Shown: positions 4,280-16,657, counted from the stretch's first letter. The stretch: 42,423 nt of DNA from a virus (IMGVR_UViG_3300024255_000054:1-42423), one strand, 5' to 3'. Made by a program: numbers and translations. Notes: generated by a model from the sequence alone, not told the origin.

Positions 4280-5226
4280 AAGTAAACTTCCTTAAATTTT
4301 TGACAGACTTTTTCTGGAGTATAATCTTGATAGCAATTCCATTCCAAAGAATTTATTTCCGTCTTATCTAAATTCTTGAGGATGTGTAGAATTTCCGAAT
4401 AGTTTTCGTAATAAATTCCTTTTTCATCCAGTGTATCTATATGATTTCTTTCCGGAGATTTTTCGTAAGTAATAACAGGTTTATTTCTAATTGAAAACTC
4501 AGCACAAGACAATCCAAATGATTCACCAATATACCTAGCATGAAGCATAGCATCACATGTATTGATAAACTTCACTTTAGTATTCATATCAGAAGTACCA
4601 GACAAGTATATCACCCTCTCATGTTCAATGAAAGATTCTGTGAACTGAAAAACAAACCAAATATCAGATCTTTCAGTGAGAACTTGTTGTATTGCTTGCT
4701 TTACAAAAGGCAAATCGAAAGTTTCCCATCCACCATTTCTACCAAGCACTAGTGCTTCTTTAGGAATAGATAACTCTTCTCTCATATCTTCCTCAACCTC
4801 AGGAAGATATACCATATAAGGAACATAAGGAATTTTATAGTCAGTTATCTTTGATAACCACTTCGATCCCATAGCATAGATGTCACCATGAACCCAGTCA
4901 GAAGTCCAGTTTCCTGATATTGCATTGACAAGATTTTTACTAACTGAAGATATAACTCCATCTGGAGCTCCACCCTTTTCCATTAAAAAATAATCACATT
5001 CATTTTTATCCAAAATAGGATCTATTTCACTGACAGTATCATAAGAAAAAACTGAAAACTCTTTTTCAAATTTTTTCAAAGCATCGACACTATTAGCAGG
5101 ATGAGTGGAGGGATACATGATAATTGGATCGACACCAAGATAATGTCTGGTCCAATATGCCCAATCATAAATTGCTACTGTTGTTCCTCTCAGGGAGAGT
5201 GAATTATCATGAAATGCTATTTTCAT
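4276..5226 (-). CDS. GT-B (GT4-like) glycosyltransferase
   Basis: A 316-residue protein with a GT-B look. The N-terminal half begins MKIAFHDNSLSLRGTTVAIY, as in donor/acceptor Rossmann domains. The C-terminal half has the GT4-like donor-site pattern ESFGLSCAEFSIRNKPVITY, where Glu and the Gly-Leu-x-x-x-Glu spacing contact the nucleotide sugar. It is shorter than standard GT4 enzymes (about 370). It probably transfers a sugar from an NDP-sugar in the cytoplasm. Overlaps of 4 nt at both ends. Confidence 0.72.
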   Translation of the reverse strand: MKIAFHDNSLSLRGTTVAIYDWAYWTRHYLGVDPIIMYPSTHPANSVDALKKFEKEFSVFSYDTVSEIDPILDKNECDYFLMEKGGAPDGVISSVSKNLVNAISGNWTSDWVHGDIYAMGSKWLSKITDYKIPYVPYMVYLPEVEEDMREELSIPKEALVLGRNGGWETFDLPFVKQAIQQVLTERSDIWFVFQFTESFIEHERVIYLSGTSDMNTKVKFINTCDAMLHARYIGESFGLSCAEFSIRNKPVITYEKSPERNHIDTLDEKGIYYENYSEILHILKNLDKTEINSLEWNCYQDYTPEKVCQKFKEVYL

Positions 5227-5915
5227 TTTATTATAATAGAATTTACTAGTTTATTTCTAATTTCTGGATTATCCCAACTAATATTATATTGACTAAGATG
5301 ATATTTTACCAAACCTTCTCCAACAAATTGTTTCCAACCATCTTGCCTGTACTTTTTAAAATTATTATATAGTGACGAATAAATATCCATATTTTTTGAT
5401 GAAGAAATTGCTAGATCACTATTTGGAGAATCTCTCATGGCATAACAATTTACATAATCCATAGACAAATTATACAAATCAATATCAAATTTAATTATGT
5501 CAACATCAAATCTACATCTAATAACAATATCATACGAAAAATTATTTTCTCTTTCGTATTGCATTTTCAATTGATTAGTTCTTTGTATGGAAAAAAACAT
5601 ACTATGAACATTAGATGGTCTTGCTAGTTCATAATTAACATCATTAAAAGGATTGAAAATAATTTGAGGTTCATACAAAAACACTACTGGATTATAAAAT
5701 TTTTTAATTAAATCTACAGTATCTTCTCTCCAGTGATATGTTCTACCATATGATAATGTTGTAGGTAATTCCATTTTTTTATTTGACATGGAATTGTCCC
5801 ACCAGGTATGCACAAAAACGTCTGGTGAATATTTTTGTAAAATATTTTTATCAATTTTTGCATAACCCTCTTCAAGATATCTTGGTTGTCCGGAAATGCA
5901 GAGTGCTACTTTCAT
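5223..5915 (-). CDS. Glycosyltransferase-like protein, CISGQPR family
   Basis: A 230-residue protein starting MKVALCISGQPRYLEEGYA. It has the internal motif DIVIRCRFDVDI, resembling the acidic acceptor/metal site of GT-A transferases. It is a paralogue in layout of the 252-aa protein at 9056-9814, which starts MKIAACFSGRIRNFE and has DYVFRLRPDWFF at the same relative place. Members are common in viral and marine glycan clusters, but the chemistry is not established. Low-complexity Asn/Ile/Lys-rich C-terminus. Confidence 0.62.
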   Translation of the reverse strand: MKVALCISGQPRYLEEGYAKIDKNILQKYSPDVFVHTWWDNSMSNKKMELPTTLSYGRTYHWREDTVDLIKKFYNPVVFLYEPQIIFNPFNDVNYELARPSNVHSMFFSIQRTNQLKMQYERENNFSYDIVIRCRFDVDIIKFDIDLYNLSMDYVNCYAMRDSPNSDLAISSSKNMDIYSSLYNNFKKYRQDGWKQFVGEGLVKYHLSQYNISWDNPEIRNKLVNSIIIK

Positions 5916-6364
5916 TTTAAATTACTAACATAATCACTACAAACAGCATAACAATTAGTTAGTTTTAATATATCCCAACTAATATCACATTCTTCTGGCA
6001 TAACAACGACTGTTGATGGAGTATAAGTTTTTCCAGGATAAGACCATATATATCCATGACTAGTCATAGTGTAATCATCATTTTGATGCCAAAAATAATT
6101 GAAATTTGTTCTAGTCATAAAATCCAATGTATCGATGTCTTTACAATGAATCCAAAGATATTGAGACCTTTTTGCCAATTCAAAAAATGAAATGACATTT
6201 TTTGGTTTATCATGTCCTAACCAGAACGTTTGAGATACTACATCGTATCTTAAATCAATTTCTACATCATAACCATTTTCTATACATTTGTCAATCTGCC
6301 CAATAGTATTTTCATCGTCTACATTAGGTCCGTTCATATTACCACGATGTGCAATGAGTTTCAT
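5912..6364 (-). CDS. Glycerophosphodiester phosphodiesterase-like protein
   Basis: A short (150-aa) TIM-barrel phosphodiesterase of the GDPD/PI-PLC superfamily. Visible motifs are IAHRGN (catalytic His), DENTIGQ, EIDLR (metal Glu and Asp) and LGHDKP (second catalytic His). Full-length GDPDs are about 240-300 aa, so this is a minimal or C-terminally reduced form. The family hydrolyses glycerophosphodiesters to glycerol-3-phosphate and an alcohol. In a glycan operon it might trim phosphodiester-linked substituents or provide glycerol phosphate; that is inference. Confidence 0.75.
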   Translation of the reverse strand: MKLIAHRGNMNGPNVDDENTIGQIDKCIENGYDVEIDLRYDVVSQTFWLGHDKPKNVISFFELAKRSQYLWIHCKDIDTLDFMTRTNFNYFWHQNDDYTMTSHGYIWSYPGKTYTPSTVVVMPEECDISWDILKLTNCYAVCSDYVSNLK

Positions 6365-6681
6365 GCCGGATACTTATCCGAAGGAATAGATGGCCATCTT
6401 ATAATAATTAATTCAGAATCTGCAAGGAACTCAACATTAGAAATTTCATTCGGTTCATAAATCCACATATCTCCTGCCTTGAGATGCTTACCAGAAACCA
6501 TAAGTTCTCCTGATACAATATAGTTCAACTCATTAGTGACTTTATGAAAGTGTGGGAATGTCTCACAACCCTTCTCATGTTTATGATGAGCAACTTCAAA
6601 AAATGGATTTTTAAAAAGGGATGGATTGAAGTCTCCTACAAACCATCCTGCTTTGAAGTCTGAGATATTTGCTTCTATCAC
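6361..6681 (-). CDS. Single-domain cupin
   Basis: A 106-residue cupin with the two conserved blocks: motif 1 HFHKVTNELNYIVSGELMVSG and motif 2 around GDMWIYEPNEISNVEFL. Metal-ligand His residues appear in HHKH and HFH. Small cupins in sugar operons include sugar-phosphate isomerases, epimerases and binding proteins, so no reaction can be named. It lies between the GDPD-like gene and the nucleotidyltransferase-RpiB fusion, with 4-nt overlaps, which suggests it acts on the same sugar route. Confidence 0.78.
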   Translation of the reverse strand: MIEANISDFKAGWFVGDFNPSLFKNPFFEVAHHKHEKGCETFPHFHKVTNELNYIVSGELMVSGKHLKAGDMWIYEPNEISNVEFLADSELIIIRWPSIPSDKYPA

Positions 6682-7835
6682 TTCTCTAACTCCTGGATAC
6701 GGATTTGATGCCTACCACCATCAAAAGTATTACTAAAGCAGGTTTCAATGTACCTACAAAGAACATCGTAATCAACATCCTTGGCAGGGATAGAAAAGAA
6801 GTTGGCACAGTTGTGACGGATAGACATCTCCATAGCAAAGTTATCATAGATTAGTGCTGACCTGATACCCTTATACTTGTTGGCACAAATATTCACACCT
6901 TGACCAGTGCGACAGAAACCAAATCCATAATCACAATCACGCTCACCAATAGACTTAACTGCCTGAGCAATGTAATCACGATAATCACAATCCTTATTCA
7001 GGATAGTTCCAAAGTCAATAAACTCTAGGTTATATTTGGTTAAAACTTTTTTAAATGTTTCTTTTGCCTCGAACCCAGAATGATCAGAACAAATGGCAAT
7101 AGGTTTATCACCAATACGACGAGTGACATTATCTTTATAGAAGTGAAATTCGTCAGGAGTTCCAAAGACATGCATCTTATCCACAGGTTCAGTCAAAATC
7201 TTTTTACCATCCTCAATGAGAAGATTGTAAAGGGGTGAAATATAAAACTCATTTTTAGTTCTCAAATCCCGTTCAATCATCTCTCTGGCATACTTACAAA
7301 AATCAGATCCTTTCTTGAATCCATAAATTCCCACACATGCATTATTACTGATTGCTTTCTTCTCAGCAGTCTCTACTACATATCCATTTCCATCAACCTT
7401 AGCATAACTGTAGTTTGATGAGTTAGATTTAAAGGTTAGTAGTAATCCATCACCATCCAAATCATTAATTGTATGTGGATTAAATACTGGTCTGAATTCA
7501 ATATCCAGAGTATGAATGACTAATGGTGCATCATTATCAATATACTCTTCAGCATATAAACAACTACATACAGATCCGTCAGTAAGTTTATCTAGAACTA
7601 CAATTTTTATATCATCACCAAACTTCTTACGAAGAAGTTCATCCATGTGAAAATTATAAACAGTCTCATCTCTAACTACAAAAATAAGATTGCATCCCTC
7701 ATAGTCTAGGCAATCCAGAGAGATATCAATAAGATGTCTATCTTTAATATTGATCAATTGTTTTGGGACTTTAAATCCTTCTTTGATAAATCGACTTCCC
7801 AATCCTGCCATGGGAATAAGAATATTTGGTTTCAT
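6678..7835 (-). CDS. Nucleotidyltransferase fused to RpiB-type sugar-phosphate isomerase
   Basis: A 385-residue two-domain protein. Residues 1-235 are a sugar-1-phosphate nucleotidyltransferase: MAGLGSRF is the phosphate-binding G-x-G-x-R motif and VPKQL supplies the conserved Pro-Lys. Residues 243-385 are an RpiB/LacA domain: CSDHSGF, catalytic Cys308 in FCRTGQG, ANKYKGIRSAL, His341 in RHN and GGRHQ near the end. RpiB interconverts aldose and ketose phosphates. The fusion joins an early isomerisation step to the final NDP activation step, and kinase and phosphatase genes lie just upstream in the operon. The exact sugar is unknown. Confidence 0.85.
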   Translation of the reverse strand: MKPNILIPMAGLGSRFIKEGFKVPKQLINIKDRHLIDISLDCLDYEGCNLIFVVRDETVYNFHMDELLRKKFGDDIKIVVLDKLTDGSVCSCLYAEEYIDNDAPLVIHTLDIEFRPVFNPHTINDLDGDGLLLTFKSNSSNYSYAKVDGNGYVVETAEKKAISNNACVGIYGFKKGSDFCKYAREMIERDLRTKNEFYISPLYNLLIEDGKKILTEPVDKMHVFGTPDEFHFYKDNVTRRIGDKPIAICSDHSGFEAKETFKKVLTKYNLEFIDFGTILNKDCDYRDYIAQAVKSIGERDCDYGFGFCRTGQGVNICANKYKGIRSALIYDNFAMEMSIRHNCANFFSIPAKDVDYDVLCRYIETCFSNTFDGGRHQIRIQELEK

Positions 7836-8515
7836 ATATACTTGCCAATAATTTCAGTCGTTGTTAAATGTGAAAATTCAATCCACTCGTGGATGTCACC
7901 CTCGTTCCCTAATAATTTATATAAGAAGCAAGAGGCAAATATATCACCAGCACCAAGAACATTTACGTCTTTCAACATCAAGTCTTCTGGTAGTTTGTAA
8001 AAGAACTCTTTCTCTCCGTTAGACACCACACTTCCAGATGCACTATGAAGAATTACCCAACCTCTTGTAACAGAAGCAAGATATGAAAGATCACAATCTA
8101 TGTCTTCATCAGAGATAAACAAGTAATCAACATAGTTTAGAAGATCTTTATTTACACTATTGCTAATACTTTTACCTGGACAAATATCAGCAGTGATAAT
8201 ACCACCCAAACCAGGAATAAAATCATGACGAGTCATTTCATTCAAGTAAATTAAGTGGTTGATTTTAGAATCAATCATCTTGACCGGATGTTGAACAAGA
8301 CTCAGATTCACCTTTGAATATCTTTTTGCCGCAGGTTTATCGACATAGATAAGAGCCTGTCCCACATCAATGGGAGACAGACCAATATCAATTGTTGGAT
8401 CAATCTCAAGTAATGCCTTCCAGACATTTGCCATTGATCCTAGAGTTTTCTTTTCAGTATCACCATCAGTAATGGTATCAATAGTTAGATGTCCGTAAAG
8501 AGCAATGTCCTTCAT
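7832..8515 (-). CDS. PfkB-family sugar kinase
   Basis: A 227-residue ribokinase-fold enzyme, shorter than typical members (about 300). The N-terminal motif GSMANVWKAL matches the PfkB Gly-Gly-x-x-x-N substrate region. The C-terminal NVLGAGDIFASCF holds the GAGD anion hole and catalytic Asp. Members phosphorylate sugars or sugar phosphates with ATP; HldE-type heptose kinases belong here. With the neighbouring KdsC-like phosphatase and nucleotidyltransferase-isomerase it forms a plausible sugar-activation route. Some lid segments appear missing. Confidence 0.82.
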   Translation of the reverse strand: MKDIALYGHLTIDTITDGDTEKKTLGSMANVWKALLEIDPTIDIGLSPIDVGQALIYVDKPAAKRYSKVNLSLVQHPVKMIDSKINHLIYLNEMTRHDFIPGLGGIITADICPGKSISNSVNKDLLNYVDYLFISDEDIDCDLSYLASVTRGWVILHSASGSVVSNGEKEFFYKLPEDLMLKDVNVLGAGDIFASCFLYKLLGNEGDIHEWIEFSHLTTTEIIGKYI

Positions 8516-9054
8516 TAAAATTTTTCCTTCAAGTCAAGTTCATAGATCTTGTCTATCACTTTATCATAAGAGAAGCAGGGAAGCAACCCATCTATTTCAA
8601 ATGTATCAAAAAGAGTCATAATTACATTTTCACCACCCCTGACCGGTAGAACTTTTGCCGTTTGTTTGACAATCCTTGGGGAATCTAACATGCAAACAGG
8701 ATATCTAACCTTCTTCATGATACCAATGTCAAAGAGATCGTCACCAACATAAGCAGTTTCTTTCTCTGTGCAATCATACTGCTTCAGTATATCATCAAGA
8801 TAATTTGCTTTATCACTATGGAATCCTGATCCACGATTAGCAATAACATGCAAGTTCCTATTCTCAAGGATACTGACATTATATGGATCGCCAGTCAAAA
8901 ATACAACATTAACTCCGATTGCACGGAATCGTTTAATTGCAGTCCAGTCCTTATCACAAAAAGTTTTAAGTTTAACTGTTCCTTCACGGTCATAATATTT
9001 GATGCCATCAGTCATGACACCATCAACGTCAAGAATTAAAAGTTTAATTTTCAT
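8515..9054 (-). CDS. KdsC-like HAD phosphatase
   Basis: A 179-residue HAD hydrolase close in size to KdsC (about 185). Motif I is LILDVDGVMTDG (nucleophile Asp and acid/base Asp), motif II VVFLTGDP, and motif III/IV YVGDDLFDIGIMKK. KdsC removes phosphate from Kdo-8-phosphate, and relatives act on Neu5Ac-9-P or heptose phosphates. No Kdo or sialic-acid synthase is present here, so it likely acts on another sugar phosphate. The ATG at 9054 is chosen over an in-frame start at 9069 because it follows the upstream stop by one base. TAATG overlap with the kinase gene. Confidence 0.87.
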   Translation of the reverse strand: MKIKLLILDVDGVMTDGIKYYDREGTVKLKTFCDKDWTAIKRFRAIGVNVVFLTGDPYNVSILENRNLHVIANRGSGFHSDKANYLDDILKQYDCTEKETAYVGDDLFDIGIMKKVRYPVCMLDSPRIVKQTAKVLPVRGGENVIMTLFDTFEIDGLLPCFSYDKVIDKIYELDLKEKF

Positions 9055-9055
9055 A

Positions 9056-9814
9056 TTAATCAAAAGCAAAAGATCTGTAATTAGCTCTATACGCCAATTC
9101 TGTGGTTATATTTGGTGCGGATAAGTTAGTTTTTACAGAACCAATATCTATTTCATCTGGATACTCACATTCAACAGGAGATTCTGTAGGAATAACATCA
9201 ACACCAATGTCATTTAAATATATTCCAAGTAAAGATTCTGGATGAGGATTTCCAGTATGCATTGTGGGAGTTTTATGAACATACTTAGATATGTTTTTAA
9301 ATAAATTAGCATACTTGGACATTGAAACACTTGTTCCCATACCAATAATATCACTTTTCCCTAAAGGATGAACTTGCGTAAAATTCCATCTAGAAGGAAT
9401 CATAACACAATTATCATTCATTTCTTCTAAAGTTAAATCAATACTTTCCAATGTCCTAAGAAAAAACCAATCTGGTCTTAATCTAAAGACATAATCATAC
9501 TTAAAGTTATTTTCTTCTTCATATTGTTCTCTCAATCTATTTGCATTGTAAATATTACACCACATTTTAGATATGGGTCCACCAAATTTATATTCAGAGT
9601 CTAAGTGATCATAATAATCATGCTCATTGATAATGAGTTTTTTGGGTTTATACAACCTATCAAATTCCAATAGGTTCTGCTCTCGTCCATTTCTGTTTGG
9701 AGATCCAAAAAAGAAAGTATCAACATCATAGATGTCAAAAAAATTTTTCTTGAAATATGGAAAAGTATCTTCAAAATTTCTAATTCTTCCAGAAAAACAT
9801 GCAGCAATTTTCAT
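9056..9814 (-). CDS. Glycosyltransferase-like protein, CFSGRIR family
   Basis: A 252-residue protein that resembles the one at 5223-5915: N-terminus MKIAACFSGRIRNFEDTF, central DYVFRLRPDWFF, and an aromatic, Asp-rich region. Such proteins occur repeatedly in viral glycan clusters and are treated as putative glycosyltransferases. A catalytic mechanism is not shown. It overlaps the GT10 gene by 4 nt. Confidence 0.62.
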   Translation of the reverse strand: MKIAACFSGRIRNFEDTFPYFKKNFFDIYDVDTFFFGSPNRNGREQNLLEFDRLYKPKKLIINEHDYYDHLDSEYKFGGPISKMWCNIYNANRLREQYEEENNFKYDYVFRLRPDWFFLRTLESIDLTLEEMNDNCVMIPSRWNFTQVHPLGKSDIIGMGTSVSMSKYANLFKNISKYVHKTPTMHTGNPHPESLLGIYLNDIGVDVIPTESPVECEYPDEIDIGSVKTNLSAPNITTELAYRANYRSFAFD

Positions 9815-10674
9815 GTTAAAACTCCAGTCATTTGTTCAAATACACCATCCAAAGTAGGTTTCCTTTCAAATAAAGGTTCTTTAAGAATAGATTGATAAAG
9901 ATTATTGTCATTATCTATCCTAACAATATCCTCCAACATAGATTCCATATCAGAATAATCACTTAAATTTAAAAAACCTTTTGTATTGAAGTCTCTATGA
10001 CATTCCGTATCAGAATAATAAATTGGAATATTGCCTGCTATCTTCGCATGTAATAGTTTTTCAGTATACCATCCACCAGGAGCAGCATTCTCAAAACAAA
10101 TAGAAAACTTATAATCAGAGATTACTTCCATCTTTTCAAGTTCTCCAGCATGACTATTATTTTGAGGAATCTGCATCTTATGACACTTCCCATAACAATC
10201 AACATCCTTATATCGGTTGACCATATCTATCATATCAATTCTATTTTGATAAGGCACACTAAAAACTGTACTACAAAATTTAGTTTTTTCTCTTGAAGCA
10301 AATGGATTCTCTTCAGTAAAATAATCAACAGGTATCAACCATCCAGGATTACCCCATGTTCCAGTATTGAACCAATCAACATAAAACATCCATAAAGGAA
10401 TTCTAATATTCTTAGAATCATATAAATCAAAGAAACTAGTGATAGAATAATCACATTCATTAAAGTTTGGTCTTGGGGAACTTTCTCCATTAAAAAATAT
10501 TTTTATACAATCATTATATGATCTATGTGATTGCCCAAAGATATTATAAATCAAACAATCACAATCTTCAGGATTACTGACAGATATATCTTCAAATACT
10601 TCCTTGAATAAAAATGTTATAAGATTATGATTATAATCAAACCCTGGCCAAAAGTCAGCAAAAGAAATTTTCAT
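9811..10674 (-). CDS. GT10 alpha-fucosyltransferase-like protein
   Basis: A 287-residue protein with the hallmark GT10 C-terminal block: YKFSICFENAAPGGWYTEKL then HAKIAGNIPIYYSD, matching the FxxxFEN...G..TEK....G.IPIY pattern that binds GDP-fucose. An N-terminal acceptor domain precedes it. Family members transfer L-fucose from GDP-fucose, usually alpha-1,3 or alpha-1,4. The same operon has GDP-mannose dehydratase and a GDP-fucose synthase homologue, so donor supply fits. Because a ColD-like enzyme is also present, the donor could instead be GDP-colitose, which shares the L-galacto configuration (inference). Confidence 0.88.
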   Translation of the reverse strand: MKISFADFWPGFDYNHNLITFLFKEVFEDISVSNPEDCDCLIYNIFGQSHRSYNDCIKIFFNGESSPRPNFNECDYSITSFFDLYDSKNIRIPLWMFYVDWFNTGTWGNPGWLIPVDYFTEENPFASREKTKFCSTVFSVPYQNRIDMIDMVNRYKDVDCYGKCHKMQIPQNNSHAGELEKMEVISDYKFSICFENAAPGGWYTEKLLHAKIAGNIPIYYSDTECHRDFNTKGFLNLSDYSDMESMLEDIVRIDNDNNLYQSILKEPLFERKPTLDGVFEQMTGVLT

Positions 10675-12900: not shown

Positions 12901-13559
12901 AGTCCTTCCTCCTTAAACTTATTGATTTTGGTTTCTACACCAATCATCCAATTATTATGAACGATCATAGCGTTTTCTTTTTTGCCTTGCTGATAATACA
13001 CATTACCATTAGGAAATAGATCCTCAGATAGTAATGCTATATTATCATTATATTTTGTGAGTGCAATGCGGTTCATGATTAGTTGATCATCGTCGGAATT
13101 ATCTGCACCACATTCTTCTACTAACTGACGACACTCAGGGGTCTCATTAAATACCATAAAACCAGTGCAGATTGTAGACCCAGGAACATCAGTTTGAAAT
13201 AGTACTTCTTCATGACCAGTCAGAATCTCAACAGGATTTTCTTTGAACACAATATCAGTGTCAACCCACATCAGATTAGGATGTTTTTTGTGAACTTGAT
13301 TAATAATTTTCCACTTGTGACGAACCACATTTCTAAATCCACTATTAATATCAAAAGTCCAATCCTGATATTCTTTCAAGTTACTATCCATATAAAGAAA
13401 AGCACCTTTATAACCTTCAAGAATAAAAGACTTATAAACGTCTTCGTCCATACATGCAATGATAAAGTCATCCATATCAATGCCCACTTTTTCAGCAGAC
13501 TTCAACATGTTCAGACAAATATCATGACATCCAGAATTTAAGAATGTAAGAAATTTCAT
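12888..13559 (-). CDS. Nucleotide-diphospho-sugar transferase (PF03407-like)
   Basis: A 223-residue GT-A protein. LMWVDTDIVF holds the D-x-D metal site. STICTGFMVFN, DDQLIMNRIA and MIVHNNWMIG follow in the order seen in the nucleotide-diphospho-sugar transferase domain (GT77-related). Substrate unknown. It is the first transferase after the GDP-sugar synthesis genes. Confidence 0.82.
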   Translation of the reverse strand: MKFLTFLNSGCHDICLNMLKSAEKVGIDMDDFIIACMDEDVYKSFILEGYKGAFLYMDSNLKEYQDWTFDINSGFRNVVRHKWKIINQVHKKHPNLMWVDTDIVFKENPVEILTGHEEVLFQTDVPGSTICTGFMVFNETPECRQLVEECGADNSDDDQLIMNRIALTKYNDNIALLSEDLFPNGNVYYQQGKKENAMIVHNNWMIGVETKINKFKEEGLWFI

Positions 13560-14506
13560 TGATCTTTATACCACTCGTAAGTTTTTTGAATTCCTTCTTC
13601 CAAAGAAATTTTTGGTTTCCATCCAAGAGATTTAATTTTAGTTACATCCAAGAGTTTTCTTGGAGTTCCGTTTGGTTTAGTAGTGTCCCAATTTGTAAAT
13701 CCAGGGAATTTAGTTACTTTAGAAATTATTTCCGAAAGTTCTCTAATGGTAATATCTTCACCAGTTCCAACATTAATAATTTCAGAACTATCATAGTCCT
13801 TCATACAAGTATAACATGCTTCAGCAAGATCATCGACATGAAGAAATTCACGTCTTGCAGATCCATCACCCCAAAGTTCTACATCAGGCCACCAAGGACC
13901 ACCCATATCAATAGTATATCCAATATCAGTTGCATGATGATACTTTGCAATCATTGCGGGTAACACATGAGAGGTCCCCAAATCAAAGTTGTCATTAGGA
14001 CCATAGAGATTCGTAGGCATCAATGAAATTGCATTAAAACCATACTGTTTACGATATGCCTGACACATCTTGATGCCAGCAATCTTTGCAATCGCATAAG
14101 CATCATTGGTTGGTTCCAAAGGACCAGTCATAAAATACTCTTCCTTGATTGGTTGCTCACACAACTTTGGATAAATGCAGGAAGATCCAAGGAATAAAAG
14201 TTTTTTAACACCAAACTTACGAGCAGCATGAATGATGTTTGACTGAATCATCAAATTATCATAAATGAAATGTCCGGGATAATCTTTGTTTGCACAAATA
14301 CCACCTACCTTTGCGGCTGCAAGATAGACGTATTCAGGTTCATTGATTCTAAAAAATCTTTCTACATCTTCTTGACAACGTAAATCCCAATTAGAAGATG
14401 GTGAAGAAATAATATTCGTATAACCCTTCCAATGAAGCATACGAACTATTGCCGATCCTACCAGTCCAGTATTACCGGCAACATAAATTTTAGATTCAGT
14501 ATTCAT
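13556..14506 (-). CDS. fcl: GDP-L-fucose synthase (or ColC-like epimerase-reductase)
   Basis: A 316-residue enzyme close in length to GDP-fucose synthase (about 320). Motifs: AGNTGLVGSA for NADPH, LGSSCIYPK with the catalytic Ser and Cys, YAIAKIAG with Tyr-x-x-x-Lys, PTNLYGPNDNF, and SHVLPA with the catalytic His. It would convert GDP-4-keto-6-deoxymannose to GDP-L-fucose by 3,5-epimerisation and reduction. ColC, which makes GDP-L-colitose from the 3-deoxy intermediate, belongs to the same family, and a ColD-like gene lies directly upstream, so either product is possible. Confidence 0.9.
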   Translation of the reverse strand: MNTESKIYVAGNTGLVGSAIVRMLHWKGYTNIISSPSSNWDLRCQEDVERFFRINEPEYVYLAAAKVGGICANKDYPGHFIYDNLMIQSNIIHAARKFGVKKLLFLGSSCIYPKLCEQPIKEEYFMTGPLEPTNDAYAIAKIAGIKMCQAYRKQYGFNAISLMPTNLYGPNDNFDLGTSHVLPAMIAKYHHATDIGYTIDMGGPWWPDVELWGDGSARREFLHVDDLAEACYTCMKDYDSSEIINVGTGEDITIRELSEIISKVTKFPGFTNWDTTKPNGTPRKLLDVTKIKSLGWKPKISLEEGIQKTYEWYKDQ

Positions 14507-15669
14507 AATTGTCCCAAGATAGAGTCTAACAATTCAATTTCTTTATCACCAATAAAATGGTTATTGCCCAAATAAATTCCATTATCATGAACAAAATCTA
14601 CATTTAATTTTTCCTTTTTAGTTTCAATATCATAATCTTTTAGGAATGGTTGTCTTAAAAGATTACCACCAATAATTGGTCTGTACTCCATACCATTTTT
14701 ATCAAATTCTTTTTTCAAAAAATGTGAGATCTCCTTTTTCTTACATAATACAGGAAAACAAAAATTACTTACAAAGTCATCATATTCCGGAACTACAAAA
14801 TTTTTGGAATATTTTTTTATGAGAGATATAAACTTTGAGTAGTTTTTATTTCTTCTTTCAATATATCTGTCAAGTCTTTTTAGTTGAGACATTCCCAATA
14901 CAGCACACAATTCTGTATTTCTAAAGTTATATCCATCCGTCACAAACATAAACTGTTTAGATATTTCAGGATACTTATCAATGTATGTTTGAAATTTTTC
15001 AGATTCTCTTGCTAATCCATGAGACCTCTTCATTCTCATCAAATCATACAAATCATAATTATTAGTGGAAATCATTCCACCTTCAATTGTTGATATATGA
15101 TGTCCAAAATAAAAACTAAAAGTAGATCCCAAACTATTAGATCCTACTTTTGTCCCATTGAGATTTTTACATCCATGAGACTCACATACATCATCTAAAA
15201 GTATTGCATTAGGAAATAATTCAGAATACTTATTTCTATTTGCAGGATATCCTATGAGATGTGTAACAAAAACAAGTTTTATATCAGGATGTTTTTCTGC
15301 AATATATTCCAAATCCTCTTCACAAAAACTAAAATTTTTAAGATTAATGTCACAAAAGATTGGAGTAAATCCCAATTGAATTACCGGACCAATATTTGTA
15401 ACCCATGTATCTGCAGGCACCAAAACTTTATCTCCATCCTTCAATCCATATAATTCTTTTACAGATGAAAGAAGAAGATAATTAGCAGTGCTTCCGGATG
15501 AGACATATAAAGAATACTTAGATCCTAACCAATTATTCCATTCAGATTCAAACTTTCTGACCTTTGGACCATTAGTAAATCTATTTGAAAATAAACAAAA
15601 AGATGCCATTTTGACCCGATCAGATAATGTTAGATTATCTTTCATCAATGGCCATTTAATATCACTCAT
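14503..15669 (-). CDS. ColD-like GDP-4-keto-6-deoxymannose 3-dehydratase (DegT fold)
   Basis: A 388-residue DegT/DnrJ/EryC1/StrS-fold protein. The Lys that forms the PLP Schiff base in aminotransferases is replaced by His191 in [14 protein letters not shown]. That is the hallmark of the ColD group, which uses PMP to remove the 3-hydroxyl of GDP-4-keto-6-deoxymannose. Further ColD-like blocks are [20 protein letters not shown] and NGIYLGNN. The iron-sulfur Cys pattern of E1-type CDP dehydrases is absent. I start at the ATG (15669), which overlaps the gmd stop by 8 nt; an upstream in-frame TTG is less likely. Sitting between gmd and fcl, it probably makes a 3,6-dideoxy sugar precursor. Confidence 0.83.
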
Positions 15670-16657
15670 GAATACACATATCCTCAACTAATTCTTTAAA
15701 AGAAATCTTAGGTTCCCAACCTAATTTTTTCTTTGCCTTAGTGGCATCACCTAATAAAGTTTCAACTTCAGCAGGTCTGAAATATTTAGGATCAATTCTG
15801 ATGACCGTTTCTCCATCAGAATTAATACCAACTTCATCAAGACCAGAATCTTCCCACCTAATTTTCATATTGAAATAAGGTGCCGATTCTTCAACAAACT
15901 GACGAACAGAATATTGTTTTCCTGTAGCAATCACAAAATCTTCAGGTTTATCTTGCTGAAGCATCAACCACATAGCTTCAACATAATCTCTAGCATGTCC
16001 CCAATCACGAAGTGCATCAAGATTGCCAAGATACAAACAATCTTGTTTACCTTCAGAAATTGCTTTGAGTGCTCTTGTAATCTTACGAGTTACAAATGTC
16101 TCACCACGTCTTGGAGATTCATGATTAAACAAAATACCACTACATGCATACATTCCATATGACTCACGATAGTTCTTTACTATCCAGTACCCATAGAGTT
16201 TTGCAACACCATAAGGAGAACGTGGATAGAAAGGTGTAGTTTCAGTCTGCGGAGTTTCTTGTACTAAACCATAGAGTTCACTGGTGGATGCCTGATAAAT
16301 ACGAACCCTATTCTCCATACCAAGCAAACGGACTGCCTCAAGCACTCTCAGGGTGCCTATAGCATCTGTCTGACCCGTATACTCAGGCATCTCAAACGAT
16401 ACCTTTACATGACTTTGTGCTCCCAGATTATAAATCTCATTTGGTTTGACCTGCTGAATAACTCTTACAAGATTAGTGGAGTCAGTCAGATCTCCATAGT
16501 GAAGATTAATTTGTTCATAAATGTGATTAATGCGATGAGTATTGATCAAAGAAGCACGACGAACAATACCATGAACTTCATAACCTTTTTCAAGGAGAAG
16601 TTCTGCAAGGTATGAACCATCTTGTCCTGTAATACCAGTAATTAAAGCAACTTTCAT
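15662..16657 (-). CDS. gmd: GDP-mannose 4,6-dehydratase
   Basis: A 331-residue extended SDR, near the usual 340-370. N-terminal [19 protein letters not shown] binds [15 protein letters not shown] follows, QASTSELYG carries catalytic Thr/Glu, and [14 protein letters not shown] holds Tyr-x-x-x-Lys. [16 protein letters not shown] is the diagnostic GMD substrate block. It converts GDP-D-mannose to GDP-4-keto-6-deoxymannose, the branch point to fucose, colitose, rhamnose or perosamine. It is the first gene of the 19-gene operon. No clear Shine-Dalgarno is seen and the predicted leader is only about 15 nt. Confidence 0.95.

Follow-up and report, generated by a model that had tools for sequence, protein, structure and literature searches.

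A block of overlapping genes in a viral genome fragment, encoding a KdsC-type phosphatase, a PfkB-like kinase and a nucleotidyltransferase (NTase) fused to an RpiB-type isomerase, is tightly conserved in cyanophages and some relatives, and its most likely role is to supply surface glycans with an unusual activated sugar. We interpret it as the sugar-nucleotide module of a phage glycan cluster, in which RpiB, a PfkB C1 kinase, KdsC and the NTase would all act on one sugar of the pentose-phosphate or Calvin-cycle pool, and we put the probability of this interpretation at roughly 0.55.

The window, i.e. the whole stretch of DNA that was analysed, is a virus record of 42,423 bases. It contains ferredoxin- and Hli-like ORFs as well as nrdAB-like genes, and the DNA of its module is 77–81% identical to that of the Synechococcus phages SynMITS9220M01 and Bellamy. 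Its source can thus be read as a T4-like cyanophage. The block is a run of five overlapping genes inside a long minus-strand glycan cluster, with the following features:

8515..9054, minus strand: KdsC-type HAD phosphatase, 179 aa; DVDG, TGD, K82 and GDDxxD intact and invariant
7832..8515, minus strand: size-reduced sugar kinase of the PfkB/ribokinase fold, 227 aa; G26..N30 and the catalytic GAGD (D191) kept
6678..7835, minus strand: NTase-RpiB fusion protein, 385 aa
7116..7835, minus strand: nucleotidyltransferase domain, residues 1–240 of the fusion; PMAGLGSRF...PK, D111 invariant among close relatives
6681..7106, minus strand: RpiB/LacAB-type isomerase domain, residues 244–385
6897..6914, minus strand: C-R-T-G-Q-G motif, residues 308–313, standing where a C-G-T-G-x-G catalytic loop is canonical
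6361..6681, minus strand: small cupin, 106 aa; HxHx4Ex6G metal motif; the usual downstream partner
5912..6364, minus strand: GDPD-like protein, 150 aa; HRG..ENT..ExD..HD motifs; a frequent partner of the NTase family

The ORFs and the family and structure matches confirm three consecutive overlapping genes at 6678–9054 (KdsC-like, PfkB and NTase fused to RpiB), as claimed by an earlier interpretation made from the DNA without database searches (hereafter the sequence-only reading). The overlaps within the trio are 1 and 4 bases. The cupin and GDPD-like genes, which extend the run with overlaps of 1–4 bases each, are likely further partners that the sequence-only reading did not include. The KdsC-like ORF starts with an ATG at 9054, although a TTG at 9069 could give a longer protein. 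Elsewhere in the window, positions 9811–10674 and 13556–16657 hold genes resembling those for GDP-mannose dehydratase, DegT aminotransferase and GDP-fucose synthase, along with a GT10 fucosyltransferase; judged by these likenesses, GDP-fucose synthesis and use are probably further functions of the cluster.

Members of the block

The phosphatase carries the HAD motifs of the KdsC/YrbI type (DVDG, TGD, K and GDDxxD), all of them invariant. Its best models were KdsC (NF007019, 1.2e-24) and PDB 3n07 (2.5e-18 over a 149-residue match), whereas the GmhB model gave an E value of 0.006, in line with the proposal that a KdsC-like enzyme takes the place of GmhB. The score against the Kdo-8-P phosphatase equivalog was 87 bits, below the cut-off of 208. 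Together with KdsC, a KDN-9-phosphatase was among the top models, and these matches would fit a Kdo- or nonulosonate-like acid sugar, with a phosphorylated acid sugar as the substrate of KdsC and a CMP-type sugar as the product of the NTase. However, no KdsA/NeuB-type synthase was seen in the block, KdsB/NeuA is not the best family for the NTase, and such routes need no C1-acting PfkB, making an acid sugar highly improbable.

The PfkB-like ORF gave a weak sequence match (2.6e-4) and scored 20.9 bits with Pfam PF00294, below the gathering score of 25.8. Its AlphaFold model (pLDDT 88.9) matched ribokinase-family structures in Foldseek with an E value of 6e-11 and a probability of 1.00, and both the GGxxxN-type motif (G26, N30) and the catalytic GAGD (G188–D191) of the ribokinase fold are present. 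The protein falls some 70 aa short of the length of ribokinases. A longer PfkB relative of 295 aa occupies the same position in another contig (L277, 3942–4829), which suggests that the short phage kinase has lost an inner segment of the ribokinase core. The sequence has no HldE family match and is not a GHMP kinase, which sets it apart from HldE domain I and HddA.

The NTase domain matched Pfam PF00483 at just 4.9e-4. With an alignment profile, it reached 4.5e-29 to the solved NTase 4evw, its nearest solved structure, a V. cholerae protein that bears no more specific name than pyrophosphorylase. The domain is remote from all sugar-1-phosphate equivalogs (29.9 bits for rmlA_long, against a cut-off of 320 bits). 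This distance speaks for the main rival to our best explanation, in which the NTase would act directly at the terminal phosphate group of a phosphorylated ketose or aldose (giving, for example, a CDP-5-pentulose), RpiB would set the balance between ketose and aldose, and PfkB and KdsC would do no more than feed or drain the phosphorylated pool. The NTases Mnp1 and HS5.18 of capsule clusters, which use a terminal ketose phosphate (fructose-6-P with CTP, PMC10918830), provide a precedent, and fusion to RpiB would allow the NTase to capture the isomerase product directly. However, the always-adjacent kinase and phosphatase are then left without a clear job, and there is no SDR-type reductase as fixed neighbour, unlike in the glucitol and mannitol systems. 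We therefore regard terminal-phosphate use as possible but unlikely.

The isomerase domain is a member of the RpiB family (PF02502, 7.8e-33, 113.8 bits, residues 246–383; TIGR00689, 104.7 bits against a cut-off of 88.3) and falls short of the rpiB equivalog TIGR01120 (102.1 bits, cut-off 138.65). Among the module proteins, there was no match to GmhA, and the PF02502 match agrees with the suggestion that RpiB stands in place of the SIS-type GmhA. The catalytic residues named in papers on RpiB and LacAB (Asp-His, Cys, Thr/Ser, His-Asn and Arg) are kept in the fusion as D251, H252, C308, T310, H341, N342, R375 and R379.

A distinctive feature of this domain is its catalytic loop. The RpiB domain on its own as query retrieved 79 loci; in all 79 it is fused to this NTase and carries C-R-[TS]-G-Q-G-x-N, and the same was true of 129/129 ORFs holding the C-x-[TSA]-G-Q-G pattern in an earlier locus set, in which redundant loci were counted. 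The cellular RpiBs examined read C-G-[TS]-G-[IL]-G (30/30). The canonical pattern had zero matches in viral contigs, but it is narrow, too narrow to prove absence. In RpiB, backbone NH groups of this loop hold the intermediate near C1/C2 (PMC4783025). An invariant Arg, or Lys in the one cellular copy described below, within such a loop and beside the catalytic Cys suggests that the specificity of RpiB has changed.

A changed loop could also mean that the kinase acts first. PfkB would then form a ketose 1,5- (or 1,6- or 1,7-) bisphosphate, the altered RpiB would convert it to the aldose bisphosphate, and KdsC and the NTase would finish the route. C-R/K-[TS]-G-Q-G is present in every member and in 0/30 of the cellular RpiBs examined, the loop contacts lie at the relevant carbons, and E. 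coli PfkB is a kinase that phosphorylates C1 of a ketose phosphate. On the other hand, the Arg side chain may face away from the substrate (the AlphaFold model of the full NTase-RpiB protein, with a pLDDT of 54.8, is too poor to place it), and the known ribose-1,5-bisphosphate isomerases belong to another family. This order of steps appears doubtful. Somewhat more doubtful is a specific form of it, in which the mini-PfkB product or ribulose-1,5-bisphosphate from the Calvin cycle would be turned by the altered RpiB into an aldose 1,5-bisphosphate, KdsC would take the 5-phosphate and the NTase would make an NDP-furanose pentose.

Conservation and pentose-phosphate link

Independent searches starting from NTase-RpiB, PfkB, KdsC and RpiB all recovered the same block. 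After duplicate removal, 85 loci remained, with about 70 distinct phage PfkB genes that had room to tell their neighbours (split profile hits were merged by hand). In 64 of these ~70, the immediate upstream neighbour is KdsC and the immediate downstream neighbour the NTase; in another five, one or two genes intervene, and an extra PfkB copy in one contig (L270) is unlinked. PfkB identity across the set goes down to ~38%, and lower still in the transketolase-bearing contigs discussed below. The flanking glycosyltransferases turn over: the upstream fucosyltransferase of the window and the neighbouring glycosyltransferase are kept in just 3 of 43 close loci. Where synonymous sites were unsaturated, dN/dS ranged from 0.05 to 0.16 (one saturated pair gave no value); the block is under purifying selection. 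The KdsC-PfkB-NTase trio is a real module, whose order is kept over dozens of phage contigs, beyond chance. The sequence-only reading was to fall if homologous clusters never kept the genes together; they form a conserved and selected module. Some phages (L193, L194, L198, L199 and L200) lack RpiB, so the isomerase is not always needed. We found no published description of the NTase-RpiB fusion or of the module in open-licence papers.

We could also observe a split mini-transketolase, consisting of a PF00456-like protein of 213 aa and a PF02779 protein of 160 aa and lacking the C-terminal domain, that adjoins the module NTase or lies within ~1 kb of it in 14 of the 14 phage contigs encoding it. 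Eleven of these contigs have the RpiB domain and three do not, two of the latter being sequence-identical; L194 and L200 are additional RpiB-less cases with transketolase. The phage glycan clusters concerned are L267–L280 and L193, L194, L197, L199 and L200, and the two halves are always near KdsC-PfkB-NTase(-RpiB). Transketolase halves beside the trio fit the pentose-phosphate source that had been suggested for the sugar. RpiB and transketolase act on the same sugar phosphates and have ribose-5-P as a common product, and for this reason a pentose product of the ribose series is slightly favoured, with a heptose or tetrose possible.

For cyanophage rpiB, a role in the pentose-phosphate pathway (PPP) has been published. 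Enav et al. (2014) reported rpiB on cyanophage scaffolds, noted no evidence of the gene in cyanobacteria and suggested that the phage gene supplies nucleotide synthesis (PMC4022391); viral rpiB has also been listed as a PPP gene (PMC10653327). The domain described here could accordingly be an auxiliary enzyme raising ribose-5-P for phage nucleotide synthesis: its catalytic residues are intact, and cyanophages carry further PPP genes, such as those for glucose-6-phosphate and 6-phosphogluconate dehydrogenase near the SynMITS9220M01 cluster. However, RpiB is always fused to the NTase and always within the KdsC-PfkB-NTase block, and it has the invariant change beside the catalytic Cys. Furthermore, the hosts possess an unrelated isomerase, RpiA (PMC4022391), so that plain ribose-5-P supply by a phage RpiB would be redundant. 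Nucleotide supply thus seems improbable. Wherever we recovered this RpiB domain in a phage locus, it makes up the C-terminal portion of a sugar nucleotidyltransferase. Judging from these loci, cyanophage 'rpiB' is probably a sugar-nucleotide gene, and we argue that its count as a PPP or nucleotide-supply gene should be corrected.

Our preferred explanation, the sugar-nucleotide module, would run as follows. A sugar phosphate would be drawn from the pentose-phosphate or Calvin pool and interconverted between ketose and aldose phosphate by the RpiB domain. PfkB would phosphorylate the anomeric carbon (C1) to give a bisphosphate, KdsC would remove the distal phosphate, and the RpiB-fused NTase domain would join the sugar-1-phosphate to a nucleotide, yielding an activated sugar for the neighbouring glycosyltransferases. 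We infer the order of steps, the C1 phosphorylation site and the use of one sugar throughout all four steps. The pathway is supported by the order, the fusion and the conservation of the genes, by their intact active sites and the purifying selection on them, by the glycan genes that accompany them, by the cellular counterpart and by the association with split transketolase. If it is true, it is an added route to activated sugars that relies on RpiB, a mini-PfkB and a phosphatase of the KdsC type, and that numerous phages share with one or more cyanobacterial genomes.

Cellular counterparts

An RpiB-family gene was found in only 1 of 400 genomes of one picocyanobacterial family, the group to which a Prochlorococcus locus with the same NTase family (L058) belongs. 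This sole picocyanobacterial RpiB (Prochlorococcus-genus genome G727, contig C17, 11675–16242) lies in a copy of the module, with NTase-RpiB, cupin, KdsC, PfkB-like and GDPD-like genes, and its loop reads CKSGQG. The contig of 22 kb is a glycan island with apt-like, hisH/F-like, HldE-like and WbpG-like genes (named by eye from sequence). It is chromosome-like and does not look like phage, although a binning error is possible. As RpiB is all but absent from these genomes, a typical host RpiB is not the source of the phage domain; the cellular copy also means that the module is not purely viral. A mini-PfkB profile had no matches at 1e-12 in 297 SAR11-family and 339 cyanobacterial genomes, sets without a positive control, and the divergent PfkB-like gene of G727 shows that this search may overlook members.

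A genome-wide NTase search revealed no cellular RpiB fusion. Its one match (PACT01000001.1) is a cyanophage contig within a Crocinitomicaceae MAG and equals the phage contig IMGVR_UViG_2825980227_000005 in length. Odd RpiB matches in SAR11 were canonical genes or fragments, save one (L340, contig C2 of the SAR11-family genome G204, 4601–10052), in which a canonical RpiB is fused to a nucleotidyltransferase resembling HldE domain II. Further genes of that cluster resemble a PfkB kinase, the transaldolase TalC and an aldolase, and there is an SIS gene. We dropped this fusion as a case of RpiB standing in for GmhA, the SIS gene being GmhA-like.

Comparison with known systems

Members of the same NTase family (~40–46% identity) occur in SAR11, Prochlorococcus, Legionella, Clostridia and the phages S-CAM9 and B23. 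These relatives have no RpiB; their NTase is fused to, or adjoins, a HAD protein of the beta-phosphoglucomutase family (108 bits to TIGR02009). Many of the clusters share the small cupin and/or GDPD-like partners with the module, but they have the beta-PGM-family HAD where the module has KdsC, PfkB and RpiB. In the simplest reading of this swap, the kinase-phosphatase pair could replace a mutase-like step, although the beta-PGM-like HAD may instead be a phosphatase. The small HxHx4E cupin and the GDPD-like 'AHRG' protein recur beside the NTase family in bacteria and phages (L055, L058, L067 and L129; 5912–6681 in the window). In phage S-SKS1 (5998–7425 of locus L005), an NTase of this family is joined to a RibB-like 3,4-dihydroxy-2-butanone-4-phosphate synthase that appears intact, in a gene annotated solely as synthase. 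Phage S-SM2 (5995–7563 of L006) encodes one protein with two tandem NTase domains, with a pyruvate-dehydrogenase/transketolase-like gene nearby.

Compared with the RpiB/LacAB family, the module domain has the same fold family and catalytic residues, but it scores below the rpiB equivalog cut-off, has the invariant C-R/K-[TS]-G-Q-G and forms the C-terminal part of an NTase. The rpiB of Enav et al. (PMC4022391) is likewise an RpiB on a cyanophage, treated there as a PPP gene and here as a domain of a sugar-nucleotide enzyme. Mnp1 and HS5.18 (PMC10918830), likened to the module by their description, are NTases of capsule clusters that act on ketose phosphate; they need no kinase, phosphatase or isomerase and are paired with an SDR reductase.

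The closest parallel in logic is the ADP- or GDP-heptose pathway (GmhA, HldE or HddA, GmhB, and HldE-II or HddC), whose set of an isomerase, a kinase for C1, a phosphatase for the distal phosphate and a nucleotidyltransferase the module would match. The sequence-only reading, which had suggested a new route to an NDP-pentose or NDP-heptose, is partly borne out. An NDP-heptose is less likely, since the same cluster contains HddA-like (287 bits, under the 600-bit cut-off), HddC-like and GmhA-like genes in SynMITS9220M01, and HddA- and HddC-like genes in Bellamy; going by these neighbours, the product is probably not an ordinary heptose. The description of the enzymes as 'non-homologous members' was also too strong. 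Both phosphatases, KdsC and GmhB, belong to the HAD enzymes, the PfkB-like kinase shares its fold with the kinase domain of HldE, and the NTase has the sugar-1-phosphate NTase fold of HddC. The module differs from the heptose pathway in that its isomerase is an NTase-fused RpiB and not the SIS-type GmhA, its phosphatase is of the KdsC type and not GmhB, and its kinase is a short PfkB without an HldE match.
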